Assembly: GCA_004796425.1 (NCBI GenBank)
Contig: QZLB01000092.1
Coordinates: 1 to 61,229, forward strand
Direction: 5' to 3'
From: Desulfobulbaceae bacterium
GTDB lineage: Bacteria > Desulfobacterota > Desulfobulbia > Desulfobulbales > Desulfocapsaceae
DNA length: 61,229 nucleotides
The notes under the pieces are model-generated. The model was not told where the DNA came from. It searched no databases and saw nothing but the letters and a program-made list of their open reading frames with translations. Both the position numbers and the translations under genes were made by a program. Below, one piece after another: positions 22,185 to 58,664 of this stretch. Position 1 is the stretch's first letter. Each line of letters begins with the position of its first letter.

Positions 22185-24060
22185 TTAAATATCATGGGCA
22201 ATCACATAAAGGCACGGGCTGAAAACAAGGACAATGAGGGTTGAAAAAAGCACTCCGTAACATAAGCGATATAGCCATTGGTACCAGAAAACGTGCCTGA
22301 ATTGATTGCTCAAAATCATTGGTGCCAACCCGAAAAATGTGGTCAAGGCGGTGAGAATGATTGGCCTGAATTTTCTTGTGGCAGACTGAAATGAGGCACC
22401 AACCGGACTGTTATTCTGGGTGAGCAATTTGTTTGCAGTAAAGGTAAAAACAATACCACCATTAATGACCAGGCCACAGAGCGCAATCATTCCAGATAAA
22501 CTGATAATACTCAGGCTGAAACCCATGACGATATAACCGATCAGCGCACCGATAATACCAAAGGGAACTATGAGCAACAGAAGCAGGGCCTGGATGTAGT
22601 TTCGAAAAAGGTTTGATAAGATTGCAAATATTAACGGGAATAGGTGAAGTAATCCTTTGGTGAGTTCTTTTAACGCTTGAAGTCGCTCGCGTTCTCACCC
22701 TTGGAGCCCGTATTGCAATCCTGTGTAATTGATTGCTAGATACGGCAGAAACTCACTTTTTAAATCAATGGGAATTTGATTTTCATTGGCTTGCCCTGGT
22801 ACCACATTGGCGGTAACCGCAATTATGCGTCTCCCGTCAACTCTTTGTATTGAGGTGTAGGATCTGGACTGCGTTACCGTTGCTGCGTTCTTTAATGCGA
22901 TTTGTGATTTACCAGATGCACGAATCATCATTCTCTCAAGTGTTTGGATTTGCGCCCGTTCATGCTGTGGGAGTCTGACCATAACCGTGAGCTTATCCGT
23001 TTCGTTTTGCTGTCGGACTGATTCAACTCCATAAAACGCATGTCTGATCTGCTGGCCCAGTGCAACGATGGATAGTCCTGCTGCCTTCCCCTCAGCAGAA
23101 AGTTTAAAGTTAAGTTGTGGTGTTCCAACGATAAACCCGTCATTGATTTCCGTAACACCAGCATATTGGTTGAACTGTAAGGCAAAGGGATGATGCGGCT
23201 GCCTCCAGGATTTCAGAATTCTGGGGGAAAGCTCTATATTAAATCGCAGCAGAACTGCCAGGCCCTGCCAGAAAATGAAAAAACAAACTTTCTAGGCCAG
23301 GAATTATACCGACAGCCTTTCGCCATTCTTTGCTGAACTTCCGGGTCGTAAGGTCTCGCTGATTCTTACCGACCAGAGTAAAGGTTACTTCTGCACGATT
23401 TTCCGCTCGCAATCCGATTTCTTTTCTCACTCCGACAAGAATTGATTTTCCCCGTGTTTTTCTAAAACTTCCAAACCTCTTCTTTCAATCAGATCTGCGA
23501 CGTTCTTAATTTCATTATTGAAGAACCAAAAGGGAGTTCGATTTCTGCATCGATACTGTCGGTTACAATTTGTGGTCGATAGGAGAAGTTGATTCAGCCA
23601 AAATTCCAATACGCAAAGAATACGAAGAGCACCAAAATAGCACCACAAATTGTGAGATAGCGGTGAGTAATAAAAGTTCTCAAAATCGGTTCAATGAAGG
23701 TGGTGATGAATGTACGAAGTTCAGAATCAAAATAGTCAGGAATACTTGTGAAAAGGTTTTGCCGGTTTGTTGATTTGTAAGAAAGAAGAGCAGGGAGAGT
23801 GAACAGACACTCAAGGTATGAAATAATAAACACCGAAATATCCACGGCCGGAAGGATTGTGAAAAACTTGCAGTGCTCCCTGGTACAAAAAGTAGCGGTA
23901 CGAAAGCCAAAATATTGGTCAAGACATCAATGGTGACCGGTATGAACTTCTCACAGGAACCCGCGATTGAAGCTAACGACATATCGGTGAAGCGTGCTGA
24001 AGTTCTCTGGTGATGGATGTTCTCGCCAACGATCACCGAATGTCCGGTATTGGATCGCAT
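22185..24060 (-). pseudogene. decayed RND (AcrB/HAE1-type) efflux permease, multiple frameshifts, 5' third missing
   Basis: Successive short frames on the minus strand line up in order with the second part of an RND permease. They are: VGENIHHQR..PVTIDVLTN..AFVPLLFVPG (around 24030-23870); a YLECLFTLPALLS helix and THRYLTICGAILV (23845-23594); NVADLIERRGLEVLE (about 23470-23520); ENRAEVTFTLVGKNQ..FLAGPGSSAAI (23430-23239); GLSIVALGQQIRHAFYGVESVRQQ then MVRLPQHERAQIQTLERMMIRA (about 23060-22900); and finally LIVPFGIIGALIGYIVMG to the C-terminus at 22185. Frames change several times and the first roughly 390 residues of the family are absent, so it cannot make a working pump. It appears fused to an adaptor remnant at its 5' end. 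Confidence 0.85.
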
Positions 24061-24337: not shown

Positions 24338-24485
24338 TGCTAGCAAAGAACAGTATGATGAATCAATTGCTCAACATACGGACCGTACCATGCGGTGTTG
24401 ACGGGCAATGTTGAGTTACACTGAAGATAGCTTTGTTTTTCGTCACTTTTTGGTTTCATCAATAAACAAGTGTGAGGTGGTTGTC

Positions 24486-26168
24486 ATGAAAGAATTATCA
24501 AAGTCTCAACGAGCCAGAACTGCTATCGCCACCTATAAAACGCTTTCCGACGCCTTAATTCTTCGGGGTTCCTATAAACCATCCGGTCAGACCGGCCGGA
24601 AACTTGAGGAGGCATTGAGACAATTCAGTCCTGAGATTTACGGTTCCATGAAGGACCCCAGAATGGTGGAGTTAAAGGGTTTGAAATATGTGATTGAACG
24701 GCTTCCACGCGGTATCGAAGGATGCAATAAGATCGTTCTCACCGCCCAGGAAGAGCTCGAAAACACCTCCTTTGAGGAAGTTCGTCCGCTTCGGAGACGA
24801 CGGGTAACTTACATCGTCTCAGAAAAAGAGATCTGTTTTGTCGTCACCCGAGGGACTACAGAGATTTATGATATCCTGACCCACCTGACTTTTCTTAATA
24901 TTGAAGCACAGAAAATTTACAATCAGGCATGTAACGAAAATAAGGAAAAAACCAGAGAATGGCTGGAGCTTGAATCAATTATTGAGCAAGGTAAGGGGTT
25001 TTCTGACGCAGAGTTGGACAAGGCTATATGGAACGTGTCCATTATTCTTGGCAGAACTTACAAAGAAACCAGAGAAACCTACGAGGATTTAGAGAAAAGC
25101 CGTACAGATGGTTATAACAACGGTCTTTTTCATATCGTGTATGCCCTGGGGAATAGAATTTATCAGGAACGGTATGATGTGGATGAATTACTGACAATCA
25201 ACTTTACCCCTTCTTTGCAGGAAATCCTTGGCCATCACAAATATTCCTCGCTTTGGGCGCTTTCAATTAAAGAAAAACTCATTTCCCTTAACCTTCATCA
25301 GAGACCTATTCATCTGGTGAGTGCCAATATGCATTCATTTCGCAATCTTCTCTACGGCAGGGGGGCACTCAAAAATTCCGGGGTAAGTGCTGCGCAATCA
25401 AGTTATGAAATGGTTGAACAATTGGTTAGTCTGGAGACTGACGTGGATGGGTTTGCTTCGCGATATGGTTTCACTTTTCATAAAGACGAGTCTGGCTCTA
25501 ACATCGATGTTCAGATCATCGACACCTCAAAGCTGGATCCAGAATCGGTTCATCCTGATGTCACGATAGACTTTGAGTCAATCGCCGAACAGAAACCGGT
25601 GATCGTCATTATTGACTATGCCTTTGGTGCTCAGGCCTATGAAATAATGGATGAAATGCTATCGCCAAGTATCATTAACGATTCGTCAATTATCCTGAAT
25701 TTCTCTTCTCTGTCAATTATGGGGAAAGCGGGGATTCTGCCTGGGAAAAAAGGTGATATAATGTTGGCCACAGCCCATGTGATGGAGGGCACTCCTCATA
25801 ATTATATCTTTGAAAATGATCTTTCAGCCGAAGATTTTCAAGAAGAAGTTCAGATATTTTCAGGTCCAATGCTCACCGTATTGGGTACCTCGCTTCAGAA
25901 TAGAGACGTCCTTGAAAGGTTCCACTCTTCTTCCTGGAGCGCAATTGGTCTTGAGATGGAGGGGGGACACTACCAGCGTGCCATTAGTGCTGCCATCATC
26001 CAGGGAAATCTGAGCAGCGACATCAGGCTTCGATATGCGTATTATGCTTCAGATAATCCTTTAGTCAGTGGTGAAACACTTGCTTCTGGACCCATGGGTA
26101 GTGAAGGGATCTTCCCTACCTACCTGATTTCAAAAGTAATTCTCGAGAAGATATCAACCCAGGTTTAA
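24486..26168 (+). CDS. uncharacterised 560-residue protein, C-terminal half nucleoside-phosphorylase-like (possibly DUF6909)
   Basis: I recognise this as a conserved uncharacterised protein, possibly the DUF6909 family, but cannot name a function. The N-terminal half (about 1-300) is helical and charged. The C-terminal half has features reminiscent of purine nucleoside phosphorylase/AMP nucleosidase folds: PVIVIIDYAFGAQAYE, MGKAGILPGKKGDIMLATAHVMEG, and GLEMEGGHYQRAI with the EMEG signature that in those enzymes contacts the ribose. ATG 24486 is chosen because GTGAGGTGG lies 6-14 bases upstream; an in-frame start at 24408 lacks one. It is followed 18 bases later by a histidine kinase, probably in one transcript. 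Confidence 0.75.
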   Translation: MKELSKSQRARTAIATYKTLSDALILRGSYKPSGQTGRKLEEALRQFSPEIYGSMKDPRMVELKGLKYVIERLPRGIEGCNKIVLTAQEELENTSFEEVRPLRRRRVTYIVSEKEICFVVTRGTTEIYDILTHLTFLNIEAQKIYNQACNENKEKTREWLELESIIEQGKGFSDAELDKAIWNVSIILGRTYKETRETYEDLEKSRTDGYNNGLFHIVYALGNRIYQERYDVDELLTINFTPSLQEILGHHKYSSLWALSIKEKLISLNLHQRPIHLVSANMHSFRNLLYGRGALKNSGVSAAQSSYEMVEQLVSLETDVDGFASRYGFTFHKDESGSNIDVQIIDTSKLDPESVHPDVTIDFESIAEQKPVIVIIDYAFGAQAYEIMDEMLSPSIINDSSIILNFSSLSIMGKAGILPGKKGDIMLATAHVMEGTPHNYIFENDLSAEDFQEEVQIFSGPMLTVLGTSLQNRDVLERFHSSSWSAIGLEMEGGHYQRAISAAIIQGNLSSDIRLRYAYYASDNPLVSGETLASGPMGSEGIFPTYLISKVILEKISTQV

Positions 26169-26186: not shown

Positions 26187-27974
26187 ATGCAAAACAAACG
26201 ACTGTTATCGATATCTCCCTGGATTTTTGCAGCCGCCAGTTTCTTACTGCTGGTAATCATCAGTGTTTTCGCTCTGAACAATTATAAACGGGAAAAAGTA
26301 TTCAGGGATATGGTGTTGATAAGGACGGGAAAAGCAGTCCTGAATACCGTATCGTCAAATACCAGAATTGCAATGAGAAGTGGTATGCTCAGAGCTCGTT
26401 TTGGTACTGAGGAGTGGTTGGAAGATGTACAGCAGATAATTGAAAATAGTAAGGTAAATGATGATATAGCAAGTATATATATAATCGATTTCGATGGGAA
26501 TATTGTTGCTTCAACCGGTAAAAGAGCCACTCTTGATCAAATAGATACGAATACCCTTGAGTGGCTGAAAAGTGATAGCTTCAGCCAGAAGGATAACCAC
26601 CGGATACCTCAAATCACAATCGCGTCTGAAGAAATATTTCAAATTGCCCAACGCTACAATCTTGTAAGACGTGGTCGAGATGGACCCGCTGGAGAAATGG
26701 GCCGCCCTCATCGTATGGGGCCGATGAATAATGTACATCGAATGTCTGATCCCCAGAACAGTACTGACCGTGGTACTGCGCAAGACAAGTCGTTCTATCT
26801 GGTTGCCGAACTATTGACCGAAGAGTTGAATAAAGCGGTTCAAAAACAGTTTGTGCAAATTGTGATCTTATCATTCGTTCTGCTGCTGGTTGGCGCTGGC
26901 GGATTACTATCAATCTTGACTCTGCAGGGACTGAAAGGAACCCAGTCAGATTTGCAGAAAATGAGTGAATTCAATGAAGTTTTGATCTCTTCAATGCCAC
27001 TGGGTATTATTGCCTTCGATAAGGATGGAATCGTTCAATCGTGCAATAGCTGCGCTCTCAAGATACTTGAACTGACATCATTTGAAACTGGTCCTCATAG
27101 GGCGGCGAACATTCCCTCAGAAGTACTATCTGTTGTTGAAAATTCCTACCAAGGGGCTGATTATGATGAAATCAGTGTACCGTTTAAAACGGGGATTAAA
27201 ACGATCTCCGTTCGGTGTGTCCCAATAATGGGGCCCGAAGCGCTTGTACAAGGACGCATGCTTATCCTTCAAGATCTATCAACACAGAAAAACCTGGAAG
27301 ATCAATTACAAAGAAGTAAACGGTATGCAGCACTTGGCAAGATGGCCGCAGGGGTTGCCCATGAGTTGAGGAATCCTTTAAGTTCTATAAAAGGTCTGGC
27401 TTTAATCTTGAGATCTCGTCTTTCTGAAGACACTCAGGCGACTGACTCGGCCAATCTGTTGATATCTGAAGTAGAGCGACTTGACCGGGGAATTGGAGAA
27501 CTGCTTGAATATGCAAGACCAGAACAACTGAGACGTGAAGTCGTAGATCTGGAAAAAATTATCAGAAACTCAATTATGCTTGTTGAAGGAGACGCTGTTT
27601 CAGCAGGTACCAAGATCATTGCAGATATTGAAAAGCCGTTACGAGCTATAAATGGTGATCAAGACAAATTGACGCAGGTATTGCTCAACGTCATCTTGAA
27701 CGGACTGCAGGAGATGAGCTCTGGTGGAACGTTATCAATCAGTGCGACCCAACAGGATAATGATAGTGTGACGATTCGCCTATCTGATACGGGTAGCGGC
27801 ATCGATCCGCAAAACCTTGAGAAGGTGTTCGATCCATATTTTACAACGAAAAACGAAGGTACCGGACTCGGATTGGCGCTCACCAGAAAAATCATTGAAG
27901 AACATGGCGGATCAATTGAAATCGAAGATTCAAGTACATACGGTACAACCGTGAAAATTGACTTGCCCGGGTGA
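26187..27974 (+). CDS. membrane sensor histidine kinase (NtrB/ZraS-like) with Met/His-rich periplasmic insert
   Basis: A 595-residue kinase. A transmembrane helix at about 11-30 and another at about 222-247 bracket a periplasmic sensor domain. A PAS-like domain follows at about 260-365, then HisKA with phospho-acceptor H392 in GVAHELRNPLSS. The HATPase has N-box LLNVILNGLQEM, G1 DTGSGIDP and G2 GTGLGLALT. Before the second helix, residues 161-190 form a Gly/Pro-rich stretch with several Met and His residues (M171, H175, M177, M180, H184, M186). No response regulator is adjacent, so its partner is elsewhere. Its stop is one base from that of the convergent DUF4126 gene. Confidence 0.9.
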   Translation: MQNKRLLSISPWIFAAASFLLLVIISVFALNNYKREKVFRDMVLIRTGKAVLNTVSSNTRIAMRSGMLRARFGTEEWLEDVQQIIENSKVNDDIASIYIIDFDGNIVASTGKRATLDQIDTNTLEWLKSDSFSQKDNHRIPQITIASEEIFQIAQRYNLVRRGRDGPAGEMGRPHRMGPMNNVHRMSDPQNSTDRGTAQDKSFYLVAELLTEELNKAVQKQFVQIVILSFVLLLVGAGGLLSILTLQGLKGTQSDLQKMSEFNEVLISSMPLGIIAFDKDGIVQSCNSCALKILELTSFETGPHRAANIPSEVLSVVENSYQGADYDEISVPFKTGIKTISVRCVPIMGPEALVQGRMLILQDLSTQKNLEDQLQRSKRYAALGKMAAGVAHELRNPLSSIKGLALILRSRLSEDTQATDSANLLISEVERLDRGIGELLEYARPEQLRREVVDLEKIIRNSIMLVEGDAVSAGTKIIADIEKPLRAINGDQDKLTQVLLNVILNGLQEMSSGGTLSISATQQDNDSVTIRLSDTGSGIDPQNLEKVFDPYFTTKNEGTGLGLALTRKIIEEHGGSIEIEDSSTYGTTVKIDLPG

Positions 27975-33744: not shown

Positions 33745-33902
33745 GGTTAAAATATTGTGAATGTTCCTTTCATATTATGTTAAAAAGGAGATTGATGAAA
33801 ATGAGTTATGATAATTCGATCGACACCGTTTGAAATCAAGCGGGGTTCACATTTATCTCAACGACCATGAACTGATAACTCGCACTGCACTGTCAAGCCT
33901 TT

Positions 33903-36218
33903 ATGATAACTCCACCACTTGAAAATATGGATAATCGAGAACTTATTGATCATCTCAGCAGTCCACGATTATCATCTTTTGACCTGATCGCGCAAGCTGG
34001 AATTTTGGAACAGCTGGTGGAACTCGTGCTCAATGAAATACCACCTCACCTGGACCAGAAGTCTTCGGCTTATTTTCGTGAGTTGAAAAAAAGAATCGAG
34101 AAGACAGACACTGAGGAGATTAATGTGGTTGTCTTTGGCGGGGGGACGGGGTTGTCCAACATCATCGGTGGCGATTGTCGTTTGGACAGTTGGCTGAAAA
34201 ATCCTTTTAATGGTCTTAAGCATGTGTTTCCCCGGACTAAAGCGATTGTTTGTATCACTGATGATGGTGGTTCTACAGGGGAGATCATAAAGGATTTTCC
34301 CTTTATTGCTCTTGGAGATATTCGTCATGTGCTGCTGTCGGCGGTGCAGGAGCGTTTATTGATTGAGAAATATAATATTTCAAACTTTCAGGCCCTTGAA
34401 GTCGTAAAAAGTCTTTCGGATTTATTTAATCACCGGTTTGCCACGCCACCTGATTCTGCAGAAACCTTAGTTCTGCAATCAGGCGCACAACTCCAGATAT
34501 TACCTCATGAGATGGAGGGAAAACTCTGGGAAATCCTGCGATATTGTTTTGTCGATAAGAAGATTTTGCGTACCATGCAAAGGCCGCAGTGTTTGGGAAA
34601 TCTTATTATTATGGCGGAAATCGTCAAGAATATATCTGCAACCCGGCCAATTCAAGAAATAGTTCATTTTTCTGATGATCTGGTAGAACCGATATATCAG
34701 ACGATCTCCGATCTTGGAAAATTATTTGGGGCTGGTGAAAACGCTGTTCTTCCTTGTACGGTTACCCCTGCACAACTGAGATTCTTATATACCAACGGTG
34801 TAGAAGTCTCAGGAGAGCATAAATCGAGTACCGCAGAACGTGGCTACCCAGTGGAAAGAGTAACCGTTGATTTTAGTGGTTCACCTCTCGTTTCGAAGGA
34901 GGTCGTTAATGAAATTGCCAAAGCCGATCTTCTGATTATGGCACCAGGAAGCTTATACAGTTCCATCATTCCAGTCCTGCAGGTTCCCGGGCTTATTGAT
35001 GCAGTAAGAAACAACACCCGGGCGGTAAAACTGCTGATTGCGAATTTGTGGGTACAAGCTGGTGAAACAGACAAGAGTATCAGCGATCCGGAACGTAAGT
35101 TTCATATTTCAGATATGATTAGAGCCTATCAGAGAAATTTACCTGGAGGGATTGATGGGCTTTTTGACAAAATACTCTGTATGTCACTGAAGGATGTTCC
35201 TGCCTCGGTTATTCAAAATTATGCGATCGAGGGTAAAATTCCAATCTACTTGGACAAGGACAATCTCGAACAGCAAGGTTTCGAGACCATTGAGTGCAGC
35301 TTTTATTCAAAATCCGCCTTGCTGGAGCGCCAGGTAATACACCATGACCCTGAAATTGTAGCAAAAACAGTGAAGACACTCTTTGCTGCGCGTGATATTA
35401 TATCCCCCCCTCTACACAATCGAACTGATTCAGAAAGTCAATCTGATCCCTCAGAATCGCGGATCGTCAGTATTCCATCGGTACTCCATAGAAAAATTAC
35501 CAAAATGATCAGGAAGATACCGATAGAATTTGCAGGGAAAACCCATTCTTTAAAAGCGATTGAGGGGCTTCGTGACGACTTTATAGATATTATCTGGTCG
35601 CATAAAGACATTCCTGTTTCCCATCTGCAATCCATTTCCGCCATAACTTGTGTCGGAACCGAACGATGGAGTAGAGACCAGCGATACGATAATGTGTTTT
35701 CCTTTTATGACCCAGAGAACCAGCATATTGTGATTCGGAATGATCGATTCGAAAATCGAAAAAAACTTGAAGTCGCCTTATTGATTGCTATCGGTCAGTC
35801 GCTGCTTGGGAACTATGCGGCTGATAAAACAATGATAAAGATTCAGCATGAGGATCTGGTACCAGGTTCCGTGTATAAACTGGTGGTACGTGATCAAGCA
35901 GAACGACACTGCTATTTTACTGATGAGGAGTTGAGTAACTATCTACAGTTGGCTCGTATGAAGCAGCAGAGCCCGACAGTCTATACCCGATTGGTCAATG
36001 GAAACGAGGGGTTTACTCCGCCAGGGGTGTTGTTTGGTGTCATGTACGCCTGGTACCTTGATAACCGGCTGGCAAGTCACATCGAATATAAAATGTCTGT
36101 TTTAAAGGTACAGGAGTCTGGTTTGATCCCCGAGCAGTCTCGAGTGAAGAAACGAAGAGAGCGATTAATTGCGTTTTTTCGTAATTCAGTTTTTGGAAAA
36201 GTGGACAAATTGGTATAA
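33903..36218 (+). CDS. oversized YvcK/CofD-like protein with N- and C-terminal extensions
   Basis: A 771-residue protein whose middle part (about residues 75-500) is a YvcK/CofD-type nucleotide-binding domain, with VVFGGGTGLSNI, ITDDGGSTGEI, GDIRHVL, and the later LIMAPGSLYSSIIPVL. YvcK/CofD proteins are normally 310-450 residues. Here about 75 residues precede and about 270 follow (35400-36218), and I recognise no domain in the C-terminal extension. YvcK binds UDP-sugars and affects cell-wall and carbon balance in other bacteria, while CofD is a transferase; neither role is proven here. A single-domain receiver and a hybrid kinase follow within 40 bases each. Confidence 0.8.
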   Translation: MITPPLENMDNRELIDHLSSPRLSSFDLIAQAGILEQLVELVLNEIPPHLDQKSSAYFRELKKRIEKTDTEEINVVVFGGGTGLSNIIGGDCRLDSWLKNPFNGLKHVFPRTKAIVCITDDGGSTGEIIKDFPFIALGDIRHVLLSAVQERLLIEKYNISNFQALEVVKSLSDLFNHRFATPPDSAETLVLQSGAQLQILPHEMEGKLWEILRYCFVDKKILRTMQRPQCLGNLIIMAEIVKNISATRPIQEIVHFSDDLVEPIYQTISDLGKLFGAGENAVLPCTVTPAQLRFLYTNGVEVSGEHKSSTAERGYPVERVTVDFSGSPLVSKEVVNEIAKADLLIMAPGSLYSSIIPVLQVPGLIDAVRNNTRAVKLLIANLWVQAGETDKSISDPERKFHISDMIRAYQRNLPGGIDGLFDKILCMSLKDVPASVIQNYAIEGKIPIYLDKDNLEQQGFETIECSFYSKSALLERQVIHHDPEIVAKTVKTLFAARDIISPPLHNRTDSESQSDPSESRIVSIPSVLHRKITKMIRKIPIEFAGKTHSLKAIEGLRDDFIDIIWSHKDIPVSHLQSISAITCVGTERWSRDQRYDNVFSFYDPENQHIVIRNDRFENRKKLEVALLIAIGQSLLGNYAADKTMIKIQHEDLVPGSVYKLVVRDQAERHCYFTDEELSNYLQLARMKQQSPTVYTRLVNGNEGFTPPGVLFGVMYAWYLDNRLASHIEYKMSVLKVQESGLIPEQSRVKKRRERLIAFFRNSVFGKVDKLV

Positions 36219-36251
36219 TGAAATACAAACTCCGCATAAAGAAGAACGTTT

Positions 36252-36620
36252 ATGAAAATATTAATTGTAGATGATGAAATAGAGATTCGTGAAATCCTCA
36301 GACTTTGGTGTGAGGAAGAGGGTTTTACCGTATACGATGCAGAAAACGGTCGAGAGGCGGTAGTAATTCAACGCCAAACTCCTGTTGATTTTATGATTTG
36401 CGATCTCATTATGCCTGTTCAGGAAGGTATAGAGACCATAACTTATTTTAACCAGGAATTTCCCAATGTGACGATTATTGCGATCTCCGGTGGTGGTAAG
36501 ATTGGTCCGGATTCTTATCTTGAAGTTGCCAGTCAGCTTGGTGCCTGGAAGACGTTTCGCAAACCACTTAATCGTCAAGAACTGATTGATACCATTATAG
36601 CAAAGAAACAACACACATAA
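36252..36620 (+). CDS. single-domain response regulator receiver protein
   Basis: A 122-residue CheY-like receiver with no output domain. The acidic pair is in LIVDDEIEIRE, the phospho-acceptor Asp lies in FMICDLIMPV, the switch Ser in AISGGGK, and the conserved Lys in TFRKPL. It lies between the CofD-like gene (33 bases upstream) and the hybrid kinase (18 bases downstream), and is probably the phospho-partner of that kinase. Confidence 0.9.
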   Translation: MKILIVDDEIEIREILRLWCEEEGFTVYDAENGREAVVIQRQTPVDFMICDLIMPVQEGIETITYFNQEFPNVTIIAISGGGKIGPDSYLEVASQLGAWKTFRKPLNRQELIDTIIAKKQHT

Positions 36621-36638
36621 CGGTAAGTTTTTCGTCTT

Positions 36639-38603
36639 ATGTCGCTTAACGTACTGGTTGTTGATAATAATCCCGTACTTCAGAAAGCCCTGAGTGGGCT
36701 GCTGGAAAAAGAGGGGTGCCGGGTCGCTACGGCAGATGATGGATTGCAGGCTTTGGAGGCAATGAAAATCGTTGTTCCTGACCTGCTTTTTACAGATCTC
36801 GTTATGCCTCTGGTAGATGGGGAACAGCTCTGCAATATCGTCAAAAATACTCCGGCTTATCAATCAATCTTTGTCGTAGTAGTCTCAGCAATTTTATTTG
36901 AAGAAAATCAAACACATTTAGACCGAATACCTTCTGATATTTTTATCTCCAAAGGCAACCTTGCAGAGATGAAAAGCCATATAAAAAAGGCGCTGGAGCT
37001 CTATCACCATAAGGGACGAAAGAGAAGTGAAATTCTGGGAGGGCCATCATCAGGCGGGTTGGAGCAAACGATAACCACCGAAATATTGCAGGAAAAGACC
37101 CATCGAGAGGAAATCGTTGCCTGTCTGTCGGAAGGAGTCATTGAGCTAAACGAACATGGCAAAATTGTTGAAATTAACCGTGCAGCACTTTCCATCCTGG
37201 AATTGTCTGAAGCAGAGGTGATTGGTTCTACTATCGACTCCCTGGGGTGGGGCAAAAAGAAAAACCAGATAGCCCAGTGGCTCAAGAGTAATCTTCTCGC
37301 CAAACAAATGCATCCTCTAGAGTTCGCAGAGAATAACCCTATAGTTCGTGGTGGGAAAGTGCTTACTGCATCATTTAATGCGGTGTCTGAAACGACCTTT
37401 TTTGGTTTGGTGATACTCAGTGATATTACCCGGCAACATCGGGCTGAAAAGTATAACAGAGAGTTGGAACACTCGTTGCGGCTCCTGAAGAAAATGGAAG
37501 CGATGAGTTCAATGGCTGGCGGTATGGCTCATGATTTTAATAATTTATTGAGCGTTATATGCGGCAATTTGGACATGCTTGCGATGTCTGGTCGATCAAT
37601 CAATACGGAGCGGTATGAGCTTCTTCTCAACCAGGCCAGAAATTCAGCGGCCAGTGCTGTTGACCTGGTACGGAAAATTTCCCATTTTTCGCCTTACGGT
37701 ATAATCAGTAGGGGTGATAGGTACCTGAAAGAGTTGGTTAAATCAGCCATCGAAACGTTTTATTTTACGCGGCCAGTTTCGATCGAGCAGATTGGAAATG
37801 GTATGGTTAGTTCAGTAAGTGTTGATTATGAGCAGATTATTGTGGTTCTTCACAACATTATGTCCAATGCATTGGAGGCGGGATGTTCAAAAATTTCTAT
37901 CGCTATCAGTGAGGATGAAGTTGAAGAATCGATCGTCGAAGCTGGACAGTATGTTCCTGCCGGTAATTATGCGAAAATTTGTCTTAAGGACGATGGGAAA
38001 GGAATTGACCCTCGGAACATAACGAAAATTTTTGATCCCTATTATTCAACGAAAGCCCGGAGTAATATGAAAGGGATGGGATTTGGCTTGACCGTTTCCT
38101 ATGCAACCATAAGAAACCATGGCGGATATTTTCTCGTTAATTCCAAGCTGGGTGCCTTTACCGAGGTTTCCATATACTTACCACTCAATTCTCGTACCTT
38201 CACGAAAAACGCTGCAAAATGGGTCAGTGATGATGTGGGGGGGGAACATGTGCTCATTATGGAAGAAGATGAGCAGAGCAGAAATGTTGCCACCTTGATG
38301 CTTGAATTCTTGGGGTTCGAGGTCCTCGCACTCGCCGAGAAAAAGAATGTATTGTCACTCTTGCAGCAGCATATTAATGCCGGTCATACATTTGCCTGTG
38401 CCATCATTGGCGTGAATCCACGAAAATCCCATCAAGCGATTAAACTGTGTCGCCAGATACACGAGTTGGTCGGAGATTTGGATATTATTGCACTCTGCAG
38501 TTCAGTAAATGAGGAAATTGCTAACGATTATCAGTCATTTGGTTTTGGTGCAATCATGTCCAAACCTTTCACCATCGACGACTTGCGAGCAGCCGTTGGG
38601 TGA
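36639..38603 (+). CDS. hybrid sensor kinase: receiver-PAS-HisKA-HATPase-degenerate receiver
   Basis: This 654-residue soluble kinase begins with an intact receiver (1-125; VVDNNP, FTDLVMPL, FISKG). A PAS domain follows at about 155-270, then HisKA with GGMAHDFNNLLS and a HATPase with N-box HNIMSNALEAG, G1 DDGKGIDP and G2 GMGFGLTVS. The last domain (from about 38243) is a receiver fold with EEDEQ, SS and the SKPF lysine, but the phospho-acceptor Asp position reads IIGVNP, with Gly in its place. No transmembrane segment is present, so it senses a cytoplasmic signal. It is probably co-transcribed with the receiver and CofD-like genes. Confidence 0.9.
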   Translation: MSLNVLVVDNNPVLQKALSGLLEKEGCRVATADDGLQALEAMKIVVPDLLFTDLVMPLVDGEQLCNIVKNTPAYQSIFVVVVSAILFEENQTHLDRIPSDIFISKGNLAEMKSHIKKALELYHHKGRKRSEILGGPSSGGLEQTITTEILQEKTHREEIVACLSEGVIELNEHGKIVEINRAALSILELSEAEVIGSTIDSLGWGKKKNQIAQWLKSNLLAKQMHPLEFAENNPIVRGGKVLTASFNAVSETTFFGLVILSDITRQHRAEKYNRELEHSLRLLKKMEAMSSMAGGMAHDFNNLLSVICGNLDMLAMSGRSINTERYELLLNQARNSAASAVDLVRKISHFSPYGIISRGDRYLKELVKSAIETFYFTRPVSIEQIGNGMVSSVSVDYEQIIVVLHNIMSNALEAGCSKISIAISEDEVEESIVEAGQYVPAGNYAKICLKDDGKGIDPRNITKIFDPYYSTKARSNMKGMGFGLTVSYATIRNHGGYFLVNSKLGAFTEVSIYLPLNSRTFTKNAAKWVSDDVGGEHVLIMEEDEQSRNVATLMLEFLGFEVLALAEKKNVLSLLQQHINAGHTFACAIIGVNPRKSHQAIKLCRQIHELVGDLDIIALCSSVNEEIANDYQSFGFGAIMSKPFTIDDLRAAVG

Positions 38604-58077: not shown

Positions 58078-58223
58078 GTCTATGGTCTTGGTAGTGATTT
58101 ACCATTCCATAACACGCAACATGGTGATAGTGTAACGTAAATTTTAGTTATGAAATTAATAAGCGATAATGATCGAGAGATCGTTGTCAAAATTATCAAC
58201 GGTATCAGGTGAGGTTTCAGGAC

Positions 58224-58664
58224 GTGAACGAGAACGATAAGAAACAGAAAATTCTACTAGAAAAACACAAGGACATCGCACGAATTGATCAGGATTCAAA
58301 AAGGACTCATGGATGGTATGTTCGGGTGCGCTTTCTTGGCAAAACCCATTCAAAGTTTTTTTCAGACAGAAAGTGCGGGGGAAGATATTCAAGTTTGCTT
58401 TCTGCAATCTCCTGGCGGGATAAAACTGAAAAGAAACTTGGTAAAGTACGTACGAATAAACATATGGTAACCGTTAGCAACTCAGGTACCGGTGTCGTCG
58501 GAGTCAGGCATAACGAGAAATTGAATCGATATGAAGTCAGCTGGGTGACTGCTCAGGGCAAACAGGGAAAAACTTCTGTTTCGATTCGCAAACACGGAAA
58601 GAAAGCTGCCTTTGAGCGAGCATGTGAAATCAGACGGCAGCGCGAGCACGATCGACTTGCTTAA
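58224..58664 (+). CDS. AP2-like DNA-binding domain protein, two tandem repeats
   Basis: A 146-residue basic protein with two similar segments. The first is GWYVRVRFLGKTHSKFFSD..GG with SLLSAISWRDK (about residues 31-70). The second, GVVGVRHNEKLNRYEVSWV then SVSIRKHGKKAAFERACEIRRQRE (about 93-144), has the three-strand-plus-helix pattern of AP2/integrase-type DNA-binding domains. Bacterial AP2 proteins are often from homing endonucleases, but no nuclease motif is seen here. GTG 58224 has GAGG about 9 bases upstream; another GTG at 58209 is in frame. A strong terminator follows directly. It may be a nucleoid or regulatory protein. Confidence 0.7.
   Translation: MNENDKKQKILLEKHKDIARIDQDSKRTHGWYVRVRFLGKTHSKFFSDRKCGGRYSSLLSAISWRDKTEKKLGKVRTNKHMVTVSNSGTGVVGVRHNEKLNRYEVSWVTAQGKQGKTSVSIRKHGKKAAFERACEIRRQREHDRLA

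Follow-up and report, generated by a model that had tools for sequence, protein, structure and literature searches.

A long-form YvcK/GlmR protein of the Desulfobulbales with a predicted zincin-like pseudo-peptidase domain and optional two-component neighbours

Positions 33903-38603 of the window, the whole stretch of 61,229 nucleotides analysed here from a Desulfobulbaceae bacterium, carry three genes on the plus strand, which encode a 771-residue protein with a YvcK/CofD core, a stand-alone receiver and a cytoplasmic hybrid histidine kinase. All three are present where the initial annotation placed them, with gaps of 33 bases between yvcK and the receiver gene and 18 bases between the receiver and kinase genes, both within the 40 bases it gave. 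The first gene encodes a long form of YvcK/GlmR that is conserved across the order Desulfobulbales and ends in a domain with a likely zincin (metallopeptidase-like) fold, from which the catalytic HExxH motif has been lost. The features, with the evidence for each in brackets, are the following, where pLDDT stands for the predicted local distance difference test of the structural model.

33903..36218, plus strand: long-form YvcK/GlmR, 771 residues (open reading frame list, Pfam, relatives, AlphaFold2 model)
33903..34112, plus strand: N-terminal helical extension, residues 1-70 (model helices; alignment to 2o2z begins at residue 72)
34113..35402, plus strand: YvcK core, residues 71-500 (Pfam CofD 75-465; overlay on 2o2z_C)
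34371..34688, plus strand: helical insertion within the core, about residues 157-262 (phmmer gap against 2hzb; model helices)
35403..35477, plus strand: variable linker, residues 501-525 (mean conservation 0.17; pLDDT 57-65)
35478..36212, plus strand: C-terminal domain, predicted zincin-like and probably a pseudo-peptidase, residues 526-770 (model; zincin matches; no HExxH)
35757..35801, plus strand: helix 619-633, positional counterpart, in a presumed register, of the zincin active-site helix (model; no His at 622-636)
36006..36065, plus strand: best-conserved motif of the C-terminal domain, EGFTPPGVLFGVMYAWYLDN, residues 702-721 (alignments of relatives)
36252..36620, plus strand: stand-alone receiver, 122 residues (Pfam Response_reg, E 1.5e-21; phosphoacceptor residues intact)
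36639..38603, plus strand: cytoplasmic hybrid histidine kinase, REC-PAS-HisKA-HATPase-REC, 654 residues (Pfam)

Predictions of promoters and terminators inside the three-gene cluster were at chance level, and an Rfam scan of the whole window gave no match.

The YvcK/CofD core proposed at the outset is upheld. Pfam CofD matches residues 75-465 (E 8.7e-46), and in an AlphaFold2 model of the whole protein (48 sequences; pLDDT 88.5, predicted template modelling score (pTM) 0.89) residues 72-492 overlay Bacillus halodurans YvcK (2o2z_C) with a Z of 37.6 and a root-mean-square deviation of 1.8 Å over 309 of 309 residues, at 33% identity. The likeness to the canonical YvcK/GlmR proteins (B. subtilis, L. 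monocytogenes, S. aureus; 2o2z, 2hzb, 2ppv) covers the whole of their fold and extends to the motifs GGGTGLS, DDGGS(T/S)G, APGSLY/S and HDP as well as to N381 and Y440. The long form is, however, twice the canonical length owing to its N-terminal helices, its core insertion and its zincin-like C-terminal domain. A phmmer comparison with 2hzb aligns residues 73-156 to 4-73 and residues 267-482 to 108-302, and the intervening insertion, at about 157-262, exceeds the B. halodurans protein by about 70 residues at this point; the moderately conserved N-terminal extension is modelled as helices at 11-19, 25-28, 34-43 and 52-66.

The score of TIGR01826, the YvcK model, is 131.1 bits, under the curated cut-off of 196, in a match split into two stretches, and the core insertion probably explains this low value. 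Together with the Pfam CofD match and the superfamily fold common to the 2-phospho-L-lactate transferases CofD and FbiA (3c3d, 6uw1), this score could be taken to favour a CofD-type transferase, for 2-phospho-L-lactate or a related substrate, over a YvcK. Such an identity is highly improbable given that the CofD and FbiA structures fit the core at a Z of only about 21, that TIGR01819 (CofD proper) gives 16 bits against a cut-off of 257.45 and TIGR04357 (the CofD-like protein of the GAK system) 34 bits against 340, and that the neighbouring genes are amino-sugar genes and not F420 genes. The GAK-system protein also belongs to the CofD superfamily, but it has about 400 residues and no zincin-like domain. 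Judged from the modelled fold, membership of YvcK is firm.

The C-terminal part is less familiar. Residues 501-771 matched no Pfam or NCBIfam family, a sequence search of the PDB with this part was likewise empty, and 30 homologous C-terminal domains compared with Pfam at E<=10 met no family apart from three stray single matches. The earlier statement that this part could not be matched to any family thus holds for sequence; for structure it does not, as a known fold was matched. Modelled alone (69 sequences), the domain reached a pLDDT of 88.8 and a pTM of 0.87. A plain Foldseek search with this isolated model gave no significant match, and nearly all of the first 37 structural matches of the model by VIA-align were zincins of several unrelated families, among them TTHA0227, selecase, PPEP-1, neprilysin/PepO, a Grifola zinc peptidase, ArdC, abylysin, jannalysin, collagenase H and PprI. 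The best match was the anthrax lethal factor peptidase domain (Z 7.5, 4.4 Å, 150 residues), and lethal factor was also matched by the independent full-length model (Z 7.8), alongside MtfA (3khi/3dl1) and, by Foldseek, PPEP-1 (probability up to 0.93), with the reservation that Z values of 7.5-7.8 lie within the background of the tool (<8) and below the level that proves homology. Sequence homology to MtfA (Peptidase_M90), which the structural match had suggested, was sought with hhalign and none was found. Since a single fold class, drawn from several families, fills the list with two separate models, a zincin fold is favoured for residues 526-770 and is likely on this modelling evidence.

The domain shares its predicted fold with the zincins (selecase/abylysin, TTHA0227, PPEP-1, MtfA, ArdC, the lethal factor peptidase domain) but differs from them in having neither HExxH nor detectable sequence similarity, and in being fused to a YvcK core, as it always is among the relatives. 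Since HExxH is kept by none of 139 relatives, the domain is probably a catalytically dead pseudo-peptidase. An active peptidase whose metal site is non-standard could be argued from the predicted fold and from strictly conserved polar residues such as H574 and E702; it is very improbable, however, in view of the uniform loss of the motif and of the putative active-site helix, a long one that follows the strands and has no His at residues 622-636 in any of the 139 relatives. The simplest reading is that the zincin-like domain is dead and is used for binding. The consensus of its best-conserved stretch, residues 702-721, is EGFTPPGxLxGxxYAWYLDN. Literature searches for a YvcK with a peptidase-like domain and for YvcK in the Desulfobulbales found no paper.

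Named relatives place the window in the Desulfobulbales, near Desulfofustis and other Desulfocapsaceae. Of 58 related genomes, 55 have the full-length protein, and they are spread over the window's family and 14 other families of the order. All 48 related genomes of good completeness and low contamination yielded it, mostly at 41-55% identity, so the 771-residue open reading frame is no artefact. A search of 297 genomes of the phylum with the C-terminal part gave matches in 24, namely in every member of the order that was sampled and in some genomes from five other families, and every open reading frame matched was long enough to contain the core. This distribution makes the long form an inherited, order-wide core gene rather than one peculiar to this strain. 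Taken over all its forms, the CofD family was found in 48 of 198 genomes of the phylum, where canonical (about 345 residues) and roughly 400-residue forms are also present.

As to function, it is reasonably likely that the long form controls UDP-N-acetylglucosamine (UDP-GlcNAc) flux and that its dead zincin-like domain serves as a docking or regulatory module. We infer that, in a host that would have to make its sugars by gluconeogenesis, the protein could respond to a nucleotide-sugar and tune the flux into UDP-GlcNAc, and hence into the precursors of peptidoglycan and lipopolysaccharide. The nucleotide or UDP-sugar site would lie in the YvcK core, the C-terminal domain would most likely dock another protein or regulate the core, and the N-terminal helices together with the core insertion may offer a further interaction surface. 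Canonical YvcK binds UDP-GlcNAc (PMC5482804), acts together with GlmS and YvcJ (PMC7525490), and has been assigned a uridyltransferase activity, with residues D40, D41 and N198 in L. monocytogenes (PMC10128056); R301, one of two key residues measured in B. subtilis, is strongly required there for UDP-GlcNAc binding (PMC5482804). Correspondence to these residues was taken from alignments and counted over up to 138 relatives. The B. subtilis UDP-GlcNAc residues T14, N218 and Y265 are retained as T82 (128/136), N381 (137/138) and Y440 (138/138), and the L. monocytogenes D40 and D41 as D120, which is (nearly) invariant, and D121, where 127 of 136 relatives have D and the other 9 have N.

Gene neighbourhoods supply the other part of the argument. 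Outside the order, the long yvcK lies beside the gene of a GlmU-like acetyltransferase domain protein, followed by that of GlmM (L092 and L093); at L097 it adjoins the genes of GlmM (TIGR01455, 575 bits; gap 10-28 bp) and a NagB-like protein; and at L096/L099 it is found with rapZ (gap about 51 bp) and a receiver-like gene, the GlmU-like, GlmM and NagB-like genes being divergent. YvcJ is another name for RapZ, whose gene classically shares an operon with yvcK. These glmM, GlmU-like, nagB-like and rapZ neighbours in distant carriers independently support a role in UDP-GlcNAc supply, and gene context in other families of the phylum points to a functional link between the long form and amino-sugar/UDP-GlcNAc control. 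The context is not universal, and f16 carriers have thiolase and PcnB/poly(A)-polymerase-like neighbours instead. In the Desulfobulbales the operon differs from the canonical one, with mdh (58) or kdsB (43) directly upstream on the same strand at 101 of 101 loci with upstream sequence.

Several neighbourhood details were recorded in passing. A 415-residue protein, composed of an N-terminal GlmU-like left-handed helix domain and an unassigned C-terminal half, is encoded next to the long yvcK and glmM in three families (L092:738-1982, L093:9691-10938, L096/L099). The receiver-like protein encoded after yvcK-rapZ (L096:9975-10475 and L099, both f47) has 167 residues and represents a second lineage with a receiver near a long YvcK. 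The window belongs to the only lineage seen with neither kdsB nor mdh directly upstream of yvcK (33745-33902); in its genome (G000) KdsB is encoded on another contig in a divergent form (47%), and malate dehydrogenase is present only as a different type (contigs C29, C173; L219, L220). GlmU is truncated (profile positions 2-331 of 452) in the same genome (L235, G000:C147:4443-5438) and in other Desulfobulbales; such proteins of about 340-380 residues, in which part of the acetyltransferase helix is missing, are found in the Desulfobulbales and in several other families of the phylum, and no GlmU was found in f16 at E 1e-60. The long YvcK as a substitute for GlmU was considered and rejected, because families that lack the long form commonly have a truncated GlmU too, so that the co-occurrence is not specific, and because carriers G090, G126, G239 and G262 have a full GlmU.

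Besides the modest structural scores of the C-terminal domain and its lack of sequence homology to MtfA, some observations weigh against the proposed control of UDP-GlcNAc flux. At the position equivalent to R301, 108 of the 138 relatives have Q, 18 have R, 10 have H and 2 have K, the residue in the window being H480, and the equivalent of L. monocytogenes N198 is I or V in 137 of 137; in contrast to canonical YvcK, the former position is thus mostly and the latter wholly replaced, and the ligand or the activity may therefore differ. In the window itself yvcK is without its kdsB/mdh neighbours, and RapZ is absent from 36 of 36 sampled genomes of the window's family, which rules it out as a general partner of the long form. 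As far as the aligned sequences go, the nucleotide site is retained in outline with two known functional positions altered, and UDP-sugar binding by the long form is plausible.

YvcK/GlmR has been studied almost only in Gram-positive bacteria, where there is dispute over its partners and even over its main activity. A naturally expanded YvcK that is fixed in a Gram-negative order of sulfur bacteria, and that stands beside amino-sugar genes in other families, lends independent support to the amino-sugar role, and the pseudo-peptidase domain and, in some lineages, the receiver could offer a built-in clue to how YvcK is regulated.

The two downstream genes had been proposed to form, with yvcK, a new two-component regulatory unit. 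Linkage was scored on a tree of 118 YvcK proteins, 107 of them with enough downstream sequence and 11 undecidable. Receiver and kinase genes follow yvcK together in 20 of the 107 rows, the kinase only in 7, the receiver only in 2, and neither in 78; the rows with the pair fall mainly in two clades, the Desulfobulbaceae (f12) and one half of the window's family. Absences are scattered, a pattern that an old association would show after repeated loss, gain also being possible. Within the window's family the receiver has an ortholog in 9 genomes, the window's included, always beside yvcK; relocation of the gene where it is missing there was excluded, with no such ortholog in the family at E<1e-30. 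The linkage is thus more than chance but optional. Desulfofustis glycolicus is an example of a cultured relative that has the cluster. What survives of the proposal is the recurrence in two clades and the constant position of the receiver gene in the window's family. The three genes do not seem to make up a unit, and the order-wide neighbours of yvcK are instead kdsB/mdh, with amino-sugar genes in distant carriers. Since the 78 relatives with neither gene keep the C-terminal domain, the two-component genes do not account for it.

The receiver lacks an output domain, and all 19 orthologs keep its phosphorylation residues (the acidic pair, Asp51 and Lys). In the kinase the first REC and the H-box are intact, and the last REC is without its phosphoacceptor Asp in the window (IIGVNP) and in several orthologs, most Desulfobulbaceae orthologs keeping LLDL. 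Domain layout and motifs are those of a CckA/VirA-type hybrid kinase with a stand-alone receiver, from which the pair differs in its place beside yvcK and in the last REC without Asp.

In the minority of lineages, including the window's, in which both genes would be co-transcribed downstream of yvcK, they would likeliest make the control of UDP-GlcNAc flux responsive to a stress or metabolic signal, either through a phosphorylated receiver binding the long YvcK or through the shared operon. About even chances can be given to the two genes being mere operon neighbours, such that the receiver carries phosphate within a phosphorelay whose outputs lie elsewhere, and yvcK only shares the transcript. 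A multi-REC CckA/VirA-type hybrid kinase with a single-domain receiver is a usual phosphorelay layout, presence among relatives is patchy, and close receiver homologs in other families (G043, G049, G055) sit in other settings; yet the receiver is never found away from yvcK in the window's family, and the arrangement is retained across two clades with different flanks. These last points, together with the short gaps and the outputless receiver with its intact phosphorylation site, would also suit direct action on the long YvcK, in which docking of the phosphorylated receiver on the C-terminal domain would switch the core and make it a metabolic checkpoint under two-component control. Another receiver-like gene after yvcK-rapZ in the two f47 genomes and the control of Firmicutes YvcK through Ser/Thr kinase phosphorylation (PMC5091766, PMC13046274) can be added in its favour. 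Direct action is rather unlikely all the same, as most relatives with the C-terminal domain do without both genes and the adjacency may come with general inherited synteny. The fuller version, post-translational control of a UDP-GlcNAc checkpoint protein by the hybrid kinase and the lone receiver through phospho-dependent docking on the dead peptidase domain fused to it, is doubtful. If true, such docking would parallel, with two-component proteins, the way in which a Ser/Thr kinase controls GlmR in Firmicutes, and binding of the receiver to YvcK would directly link two-component signalling to the supply of cell-wall precursors.

Elsewhere in the window, a type II/IV secretion ATPase (MshEN and T2SSE) with a C-terminal cyclic-nucleotide-binding domain is encoded at 628-2880, a DUF6909 protein at 24408-26165 is directly followed by a histidine kinase (26187-27971), and a small stand-alone AP2-domain protein lies at 58209-58661. 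A run of short open reading frames on the minus strand (22188-24060), one of which (22698-22982) matches the middle of AcrB/ACR_tran, looks like a decayed resistance-nodulation-division (RND) transporter gene.

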